Below, in pieces: positions 285 to 4,484 of a stretch of 36,130 nt of DNA. How positions within the stretch are numbered: the stretch's first letter is position 1; every line of letters starts with the position of its first letter. The notes below the pieces were generated by a model that did no database searches, was not told where the DNA came from, and saw only the letters and a list, made by a program, of their open reading frames with translations. This DNA comes from Microcaldota archaeon (GTDB lineage: Archaea > Micrarchaeota > Micrarchaeia > Anstonellales > Anstonellaceae): contig JAGVWK010000015.1 of the NCBI GenBank assembly GCA_018304295.1, positions 1 to 36,130 on the forward strand, in the 5' to 3' direction. The position numbers and the translations under genes were made by a program.

Positions 285-2372
285 TCGATAGATGGGGATA
301 ATGCTGCCGCAATGAGATATACCGAAGTGCGCATGAGCAAAATGGCAGGCGACATGCTTGAGGACATTGAAAAGCAGACAGTTGATTTTGCGGCAACGCT
401 CAAGGAGCCCCTTGTGCTTCCCTGCGCAGTGCCGAATCTGCTTGTGAACGGCTCTTCGGGAATTGCGGTAGGGATGGCCACCAACATACCTCCGCATAAC
501 CTTGGGGAGGTTGTGGATGCGCTTGTGCTCATGATAGACAGCCCCAATGCCACATTGCAGCAGCTCATGGAAAAAATAAAGGGGCCTGATTTTCCCACTG
601 GGGGGATAATATGCGGCACTTCGGGCATACTTTCCGCGTATGCAACCGGCAGGGGAAGCGTGCGCATAAGGGCGAAAACGGAAATTCTGCAAAGCAAAAA
701 GGACAAGAGCCGCAAAAAGATAATCATTACGGAAATTCCTTATCAGGTGAACAAGGCTGAGCTTGTGAAAAAAATCGCCGAGCTTGTGCGCGAGAAGGTG
801 GTGGAAGGCATAAGCGACATTGCAGACCGCTCGGACAGGACCGGAATTGAGGTTGAAATTGAGCTTAAGAGGGACGCAAATGCGGAAGTGGTGCTTAACC
901 AGCTTTATGCGCACACGCCCCTTGAGAACGCCTTTGGGATAATCAACCTTGCGCTTGTGAACAATGAGCCAAAGGTGATGCCCCTTGCCGACATGCTGCG
1001 CGAATTCATCAACCACCGCAGGACTGTGGTGAGGCGCAGGTGCGGCTTTGAGCTTTCGCAGGCGCAGGAGAGAAAGCACGTGCTTGACGGCTTCAAGGCT
1101 GCTCTTGGGAGAATTGACGATGTCGTGAAAATGCTCAAGGCGGCGGCAAATGCGCCCGCTGCAAAGGATGCGCTCGTTTCCATGCTTTCAATAGACGTGA
1201 AGCAGGCAGAGGCGATACTTGAGCTTAAGCTTGGAAGGCTAACCGCCCTTGAGCAGGGGAAAATTGAAAGTGAGCACGCCGAGCTTTCAAAGAGGATAGA
1301 GTGGCTGGCAGCCGTGCTTGCGGACGAGGCAAAAGTGTTTGCGATTGTGAAAGAGGAGCTGCTTGAGATACGGAAAAAATACGCAAACGAGAGGCGCACA
1401 AAAATAGAGCAGGGTGGGGAGGAGGGGCTGGAGCTTGAGGATTTGGTGCCTGATGAAAAGGCGGTCGTGATAATCACAAAGAGCGATTACGTAAAGCGCG
1501 TGGGGCTTGAGGAATATCGCGTGCAAGGAAGGGGCGGCAAGGGCGTGCTTGGCACTGAAATGAAGGAGGAGGACGAGGTAAAGGACGTTCTTGTGTGCAA
1601 CACGCACGATTATTTGCTTTGTTTTACGCATCAGGGGACGGTGCATTGGCTCAAGGTGTATAAAATACCACAAACCGGCAGGTATGCGATGGGCAGGCCC
1701 ATTGTGAATTTGCTGAACGTAAAGGAGGAGAGGCTTGCCCATCGCATACCTGCCGGTTTGTGGTATTTTATACACCTTGAGCCAATGCACCGTCCCCTGA
1801 GCGGCATAATTGCAATCACGCTGCGTGAGAAAGACGAGCTCATAGAGGTGCGCAAAACCGACGGGAAAAGGAACATAATAATAGGCACAAAGGACGGGTA
1901 CGCGATACGCTTTGAGGAGGAAGACGTGCGCGAGATAGGAAGGACTGGGCAGGGGGTGCGCGGCATTGACCTGCGCGAGGGCGATGAAGTTATAGGGATG
2001 GCGCTTGATGACGTTAAAACCCTTCTTACTGTGTGCGAGAACGGGTATGGGAAGCGCACAGAGCTTGAGGAATACCGCGTACAAGGAAGAGGAGGAATGG
2101 GAGTGATAAACATACAGGCGGACGAGCGCAACGGCAAGGTTGTTGCGCTGCGCGCTGTTGAGGATGATGACGAGCTCATACTGCTTTCCAACATGGGCAA
2201 GGCAATAAGGATTCCGGCAGCAGGCATATCTGTTGTGGGCAGGAACACAAAGGGCGTTCGGCTCATGAGGATGCAGGAAAACGAGAAAGTTGTTGCGCTT
2301 GCGGTCGTAAAGAAAGAGCCCGACGGTAACGGGAACAAGGCGGAAAAGAAAGAAGACGCGCCCGCCTCTTAA
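3..2372 (+). CDS. gyrA: DNA gyrase subunit A, 3' part (5' end outside window), interrupted by an intein
   Basis: Frame open from the left edge; after the intein, SIDGDNAAAMRYTEVRMSKMAGDMLEDIEKQTVDF and PNLLVNGSSGIAVGMATNIPPHNLGEV are diagnostic GyrA motifs (catalytic Tyr in AAMRYTE); QGRGGKG (GyrA-box-like) and NGYGKRTELEEYRVQGRGGMGVINI in the C-terminal domain. Confidence 0.96.
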   Translation, partial: FLSVCKQIVAHGSAICEESYESMRNVVYPYGHATTWKKGLEKYFGNNISLVLCEVNGNHKVIKTELLEMREDVYDLTVDGTHNFALSAGVFVHNSIDGDNAAAMRYTEVRMSKMAGDMLEDIEKQTVDFAATLKEPLVLPCAVPNLLVNGSSGIAVGMATNIPPHNLGEVVDALVLMIDSPNATLQQLMEKIKGPDFPTGGIICGTSGILSAYATGRGSVRIRAKTEILQSKKDKSRKKIIITEIPYQVNKAELVKKIAELVREKVVEGISDIADRSDRTGIEVEIELKRDANAEVVLNQLYAHTPLENAFGIINLALVNNEPKVMPLADMLREFINHRRTVVRRRCGFELSQAQERKHVLDGFKAALGRIDDVVKMLKAAANAPAAKDALVSMLSIDVKQAEAILELKLGRLTALEQGKIESEHAELSKRIEWLAAVLADEAKVFAIVKEELLEIRKKYANERRTKIEQGGEEGLELEDLVPDEKAVVIITKSDYVKRVGLEEYRVQGRGGKGVLGTEMKEEDEVKDVLVCNTHDYLLCFTHQGTVHWLKVYKIPQTGRYAMGRPIVNLLNVKEERLAHRIPAGLWYFIHLEPMHRPLSGIIAITLREKDELIEVRKTDGKRNIIIGTKDGYAIRFEEEDVREIGRTGQGVRGIDLREGDEVIGMALDDVKTLLTVCENGYGKRTELEEYRVQGRGGMGVINIQADERNGKVVALRAVEDDDELILLSNMGKAIRIPAAGISVVGRNTKGVRLMRMQENEKVVALAVVKKEPDGNGNKAEKKEDAPAS
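1631..1800. repeat. 65-bp perfect inverted repeat inside gyrA (arms 1631-1695 and 1736-1800, 40-nt spacer)
   Basis: tcaggggacggtgcattggctcaaggtgtataaaataccacaaaccggcaggtatgcgatgggca is the exact reverse complement of 1736-1800. Confidence 0.97.
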
Positions 2373-4484
2373 AGCTTAGCCCATTTGAGCGTGAGCGCGT
2401 TAAGCACTACTGAAACGCTTGAGAGCGCCATTGCGCCGCCCGCTATTATTGGGGAGAGAAGCACGCCGCTTGAGTAGTAGAAAACTCCGGCAGCTATTGG
2501 AATGCCCACCACATTATACACAAGTGCCCAGAACATGTTCTGCTTTATTTTGCTTATTGTCGCCCTGCCAAGCACTATTGCGCGGGGAACGTCCATTGGG
2601 TCGCTTTTCATAAGAACAACAGAGCCGGTTTCCATTGCAACATCGGTGCCCGAGCCCATTGCAATTCCTATGTCCGCCTGTGCAAGCGCGGGCGCGTCGT
2701 TTATACCGTCCCCCACCATTGCGACCTTGATGCCTTTCTCTTGCAGCTTTTTCACGTATGCCGCCTTGTCCTGCGGGAGGACTTCCGAAAACACGTTCTT
2801 TATGCCTGCGAGCTTTGCAATTGCGCTTGCGGTGCGCGCATTGTCCCCTGTAATAAGCCAGCTTTCTATTCCCAGCTCGCGCAACTTGCTTATTGCTTTT
2901 ATGCTTGTGGGGCGGATTGTATCCGCGATTGCGATTATTGCGGCGGGTTCCCTCTTTTGCCTTCCCGTCCGGCTTTCCAATGTAAATTTTTTGGCTGCCT
3001 ATTTTTGCCTCAACACCGTGCCCGGGGGTTGCCTTAAAGCCGGTTGCCTTTTTTGCCTGCGCGCCTTTTTCCTTTGCATATTGCACTATTGCGCCTGCAA
3101 GTGGATGTTCGGAATTTCTTTCTATTGAGAATGCAAAGGAAAGAAGCTGCCTTTCATTGCCCAAAAGGCGGTTGCCTGCCAGCACAATGAAATCAGTTAC
3201 TTTTGGCTTTCCCTCCGTTATTGTGCCCGTCTTGTCAAATATTATTGCCTTTATCTTGTGCATTAGCTCAAGGCTTTCCGCGTTCTTTATCAGTATGCCC
3301 TTTTGCGCGCCTATTCCCGTGCCCACCATTATTGCAGTCGGGGTTGCAAGCCCCAATGCGCAGGGGCACGCTATTACGAGCACGGAGACTGCTATTATGA
3401 GGGCAAATGAGAGTGTCTGGCCGAGCACAAGATACCAAGCAAGAAACGAGAGGACTGCGATTGCTATCACTATTGGCACGAAAACCGCGCTTATCTCGTC
3501 CGCAAAGCGCTGTATGCTTGCGCGGCTGCCCTGCGCCTCCTCAACAAGCTTCACTATTTTTGCAAGCACGGTGCCCTCCCCAACTTTTGTTGCGCGCAAA
3601 GTGAGAGAGCCGTGCTTGTTTATTGAGCCGCCTACCACGTGCGAGCCTTTTTTCTTTTCAACAGGCATGCTTTCCCCGCTTATCATGCTCTCATCAACTG
3701 ATGAGTCCCCGCTTATCACAATGCCATCCACAGGAATGCTTTCGCCTGGCTTTACAAGTATCATGTCGCCGATTTTCACTTGCGCGATGGGTATTTTCTG
3801 CTCCTTTGCGCCCCTTATCACAGTCGCATATTTGGGGGAGAGGTCCATGAGCTTTCTTATTGCCTCTGATGTGCGCCCTTTTGCAAGCGCCTCAAGATAT
3901 TTCCCAAGTATTACAAGCGTGATGAGCACCGCTGCTGTTTCAAAATATTGCTCCTCCACAAAGCCAAAGAGCGCCGCTACGCTGTAGAAATACGCCGCGG
4001 ATGTGCCGACCGCAATAAGGGTGTCCATGCTTGCGGACCTGTTTTGCAATGCGCTCCATGCGCCAAGGTAAAAATGCCTGCCGACGTAAAACTGCACCGG
4101 GGTAGAGAGAAGGAAAAGGATTTCCATCCGATAAGGGAATTCCATAAGGAACATGCCGATTATGAGCGCGGGAAAGGAAAGCACCGCGCCTATCATGAGC
4201 AATTTTTTAAGCTCCGCTATTTCCTCTTCGCGCATTTTCTTTTCGCGCTCGCGATCCGCGCCAATGCTTGCGGAATAGCCCTTTGCCTTTACAACTTCAA
4301 TGAGCTTTTGCACGCCTGTTTTCTTTTCGTCAAATTCCACCAGCGCCTTCCCGGCAGCATAGTTCACGTTTGCATTACTTACGCCCTCTGCCTTTGCAAG
4401 CGCGCGCGTGAGCAATACTGCGCACGAGGCGCAGTGCATCCCGTTTATCGTGAGTTCAGCTTTTTTCATGCCGGCTTTTTTCAT
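2369..4484 (-). pseudogene. copA: Cu+-type P1B ATPase (CopA-like), split into two frames near 2945-2985
   Basis: N-part: [21 protein letters not shown] (CPC), [19 protein letters not shown]-part in another frame: [54 protein letters not shown]. Neither frame alone is complete. Confidence 0.8.

Follow-up and report, generated by a model that had tools for sequence, protein, structure and literature searches.

The window analysed here is 36,130 nt long and comprises the entire contig C27 of a Micrarchaeota-type genome bin (1.05 Mb in 49 contigs, with completeness scored at 84% and contamination at 1%). Its first gene is gyrA, followed on the opposite strand by the copper-ATPase gene copA (2372-4469). 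The contig start falls inside a GyrA intein, whose C-terminal end is encoded at 3-296, where GVFVHN is followed by SIDGDN and the Pfam Intein_splicing match lies just below the cut-off. Intein C-termini at the same site were identified in the relatives' loci L006, L008, L009 and L012, while LFW-35 (L005) and others carry an empty site, GNFG followed by S(M/I/V)DGD. No gyrB was found in the assembly; since gyrB lies close upstream of gyrA in LFW-35 and in most relatives, the missing gene probably sits just past the left end of the contig. LFW-35 (G001), a member of the same genus and the closest of the relatives compared, served as reference and shares ~79% nucleotide identity with the window. 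The GyrA comparison set contained 109 other loci, a few of which represent the same genome twice. The coordinates of all features are provided in Table 1.

Table 1 Features of the gyrA region and deletions relative to LFW-35 in the same assembly. Positions without a contig prefix refer to the window.
Feature	Position	Strand	Description and evidence
Post-intein gyrA coding sequence, encoding the GyrA core and the C-terminal beta-pinwheel	297-2372	+	Pfam DNA_topoisoIV (8.6e-106), five DNA_gyraseA_C repeats; 82% identity to LFW-35 GyrA
Arm 1	1631-1695	+	Original gyrA sequence and template of the inverted copy; collinear homology with LFW-35 gyrA
Spacer (40 nt)	1696-1735	+	Ordinary gyrA sequence, GRPIVNLLNVKEERL; alignment with LFW-35 and other relatives
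First junction	1732-1738	+	Reverse-complement match to 1693-1699 with one mismatch (T opposite G)
Arm 2	1736-1800	+	Exact reverse complement of arm 1, standing in for ~110 nt that normally encode two blade strands of the CTD; relatives' alignments and structure models
Second junction	1801	+	Homology to relatives restarts; blastn of LFW-35 gyrA
copA lesion	2944-2952, near 2948	-	~77 nt (~26 codons) frame-shifting deletion that splits the gene; the window's other lesion, at a distance of 1.2 kb from the gyrA patch
rpoB lesion	C24:25155-25158 (L247, L248)		37 nt, frame shift inside RNA_pol_Rpb2_6
smc lesion	C34:41564		158 nt, frame shift inside SMC_hinge
T2SSE/TadA-type secretion ATPase lesion	C9:34756		128 nt, frame shift; Walker A motif GGTGSGKT lost
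ubiD lesion	C15:10220		135 nt, in frame
TIM-barrel gene lesion	C47:557		36 nt, in frame

The two arms within gyrA are reverse complements at 65 of 65 positions, exactly as an earlier note on this DNA had described them, and each is single-copy in the window. When one mismatch is allowed, the arms grow to 1631-1699 and 1732-1800 (69 nt at 99%). This is the sole perfect inverted repeat of at least 20 nt within 1 kb in 1,046,737 of the 1,051,108 genome bases, the runners-up in the assembly measuring 19, 18 and 18 nt, and no inverted repeat longer than 25 nt was found in 0.9 Mb of the relatives' loci. Because nothing comparable occurs elsewhere in the assembly or in those loci, the repeat is far beyond chance, and the inverted pattern is confirmed as a real feature of the assembled sequence. 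The candidate microhomology at the first junction consists of TGC plus GGC across one mismatch, the TGC at 1736-1738 being common to LFW-35 and the inverted copy, and the return point lacks clear homology. The arms are 100% identical, with zero differences between them, so the event would have at most ~18% of the age of the divergence from LFW-35. The gyrA reading frame remains open through the patch, which the earlier note had also observed, but ~22% of simulated events with the same geometry stay open as well; the open frame therefore carries little weight, and selection for an intact frame fails as proof that the event is real.

Comparison with relatives established what the patch replaced. 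By blastn and alignment, LFW-35 gyrA matches the window to 1738 and restarts exactly at 1801, with 110 nt of its own sequence in between. The codons of arm 1 share 91% amino acid identity with LFW-35, whereas the inverted segment is not homologous (30% amino acid and 37% nucleotide identity); homology thus identifies arm 1 as the original and rules out arm 2 as the ancestral arm. Between the conserved (L)A and GIIAI, 21 residues are encoded in the window versus 35-47 in all 109 other GyrA loci, which agrees with the earlier reading of the protein, in which about 21 residues took the place of a normal stretch of about 35-40. The alignment with relatives' gyrA proposed in the earlier note showed the ordinary segment kept throughout and the inversion in none of the 109 loci, and the suggested structure of an inverted copy plus a deletion was borne out. 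Several nearly invariant residues are among those lost.

In its C-terminal domain, the window GyrA contains five Pfam DNA_gyraseA_C repeats versus six in LFW-35 and in L035, and thus falls short of a complete six-blade domain as judged by six such repeats. Everything else, the GyrA box (QGRGGKG) and the remaining blades included, matches the GyrA C-terminal beta-pinwheel (PF03989); the difference lies in the one undetected repeat, a blade devoid of its two middle strands. AlphaFold2 models of the window and LFW-35 proteins, built from one common set of 28 sequences, displayed the same difference: LFW-35 strands 114-119 and 123-128 are missing in the window model, where residues 109-120 have a pLDDT below 50.

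Genes of this genome and LFW-35 were then compared in both directions (~350 genes, ~366 kb of coding sequence). Measured against LFW-35, six more lesions (36-158 nt), all with well-matching flanks, were found in conserved genes of this assembly (Table 1). By tblastn, copA falls into two pieces that occupy different reading frames, and the counterpart of LFW-35 residues 504-529 is absent. In rpoB, Pfam PF00562 positions 3-38 and 50-373 are matched in two frames of one contig, and positions 39-49, comprising 11 conserved residues, are lost. No second rpoB copy was found in the assembly. Cells need an intact RNA polymerase B subunit to live; as the sole copy is broken, the rpoB lesion at least must be false. 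With gyrA included, the frame is kept in three of the seven lesions and changed in four, which is the chance expectation in the absence of selection. An inverted piece accompanies the gyrA lesion only and none of the other six. The reciprocal search revealed no comparable series of lesions in LFW-35: the pieces missing there are intein-sized (1,416 and 1,536 nt) or linker-like and are multiples of three, the one exception being a 16-nt difference in a short ORF. The intein-sized pieces correspond to genes of this genome at C46:19693-22482 and C42:1565-4333, which contain in-frame insertions of 1,416 and 1,536 nt compared with LFW-35.

In approximately ten pairs of contig ends across the assembly the overlap is exactly 99 nt, which suggests that short reads were assembled by a de Bruijn method at a word size near 99-100. 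The earlier suggestion that a 65-bp arm is close to typical assembler k-mers does not fit this value.

Taken together, the inverted patch is in all likelihood a sequencing or assembly artefact, the likeliest kind being a local assembly error in a bin built from short reads. This reading is favoured because the assembly contains six similar deletions outside gyrA, one of them a frame shift in its only rpoB. The lesions break indispensable genes among others (rpoB, smc, the T2SSE ATPase, copA, ubiD and the TIM-barrel gene), they are unfiltered by frame, with four of seven shifting it, and the better assembly of LFW-35 is free of such lesions. The earlier note had left a real mutation and a chimera or assembly artefact side by side; the genome-wide comparison with LFW-35 strongly supports the latter and weakens the former.

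According to the proposed sequence of events, ~110 nt of true gyrA would have been lost at a weak spot in the assembly. The left side would then have been extended by a fold-back piece, in which the upstream strand runs backwards for 65 nt, primed by the near-match at 1732-1738, and this piece would finally have been joined to the right side at 1801. We infer that a fold-back read end at the weak spot supplied the inverted piece; the join itself was presumably made without read support. Local assembly errors in metagenome bins have been described as joins lacking even one supporting read, are suspected to be prominent in IDBA-UD assemblies, and numbered 13 in one 1.13-Mb genome (PMC7111523, in the portion of that report drawn on here). 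As in that portion, scattered and probably wrong joins here damage conserved genes in otherwise good contigs, and the seven in ~366 kb of coding sequence match the published frequency, about a dozen per Mb, in order of magnitude; unlike here, an inverted copy at the join is not mentioned in that portion of the report (PMC7111523).

Three observations weigh against an artefact. The 65 nt of arm 2 fall below the apparent word size (~99) and k-mers of at least 66 nt are unique in the arm 2 region, so a well-behaved de Bruijn path would have needed reads across both junctions. The other six lesions lack an inverted piece, and the gyrA event could in principle differ from them in cause. Finally, the gyrA frame and most of the gene are intact.

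A sub-case of the artefact reading, in which a chimera from multiple displacement amplification (MDA) or library PCR entered the consensus where coverage was low, is considered unlikely; being an artefact as well, it would alter the overall conclusion little. An inverted segment with an intervening deletion is present in 85% of MDA chimeras, which are usually primed at short complementary stretches (PMC1855051), and the gyrA patch resembles them in the former respect and, through its near-match at 1732-1738, possibly in the latter. The simple MDA chimera has one junction, however, while the patch has two within 65 nt. Inverted joins do not dominate here, as only one of the seven lesions is inverted, the others are plain deletions, and no further fold-back or other inverted repeat of at least 20 nt occurs in the assembly. 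The shortest contig, at 5,094 nt, also suggests a length-filtered metagenome bin rather than an amplified single cell. Since inversion predominates among MDA chimeras but marks one lesion of seven here, amplification is less plausible than local assembly error, and single-cell amplification chimeras were rejected as the main cause because the inverted fraction of these lesions is too low.

A real and recent template switch appears improbable. It would have produced a GyrA whose damaged blade is either tolerated or carried by a variant that still segregates in the population. By this route, itself no better than improbable, the growing strand would have folded back at the near-match between 1693-1699 and 1732-1738, copied itself for ~60 nt and returned ~110 nt further on. 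The geometry conforms to the four-point model: exit at ~1735-1738, backward copying from 1695 to 1631 and return at 1801 give the order 3-2-1-4, which belongs to the two most frequent classes of template switch in great apes (PMC7954356), so that both junctions and their order fit the model and its majority types. The insert is an exact reverse complement of nearby sequence (65/65), forming a single perfect inverted repeat between two switch points, and at 1801, where collinearity with LFW-35 begins again, the original template and orientation are resumed. In E. coli, quasipalindromes are established sites of template switching (PMC7202029), the frame is open, and perfect arms suit a recent event. 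Inverted insertions in great apes have been found up to 128 nt long, the median being 12 (PMC7954356); the window event exceeds that median, replaces 110 conserved coding nucleotides, and lies in an assembly whose essential genes contain demonstrable errors. No living majority genotype could have rpoB, smc and further conserved genes thrown out of frame by deletions, the lost segment held several nearly invariant residues, and the relatives all lack the inversion. Template switching had been the favoured reading on the strength of the isolated inverted repeat and an arm shorter than the assembler word, but was overturned by the genome-wide comparison of deletions. It retains a small share of the probability because gyrA alone is inverted among the lesions and its arm is below the apparent word size. 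That a natural archaeal switch of unusual length rewrote a blade of this essential gyrase subunit in frame, so that a functional GyrA now includes a peptide read from its own antisense strand, is more doubtful still and very unlikely.

A functional element has a negligible probability, be it an invertible switch, a hairpin kept by selection or a mobile palindrome that entered the gene in frame, since the very stable RNA hairpin predicted for the region (-170 kcal/mol, z -22) arises automatically from an inverted copy, while arm 1 is ordinary gyrA, a mobile palindrome is rejected by arms found nowhere else in the genome, and an invertible switch by the lack of any sign of the structure among relatives. 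The junction sequence had no match in the viral contigs searched.

With the patch attributed to a local assembly error, its biological meaning is most likely none, and GyrA in the living organism very probably has the usual six blades. The result is chiefly a caution about a species-representative genome in which gyrA, rpoB, smc and further marker genes very probably contain false deletions. Such deletions escape the scores for completeness (84%) and contamination (1%), and they would distort protein annotation, counts of blades and of pseudogenes, and trees built from marker genes.
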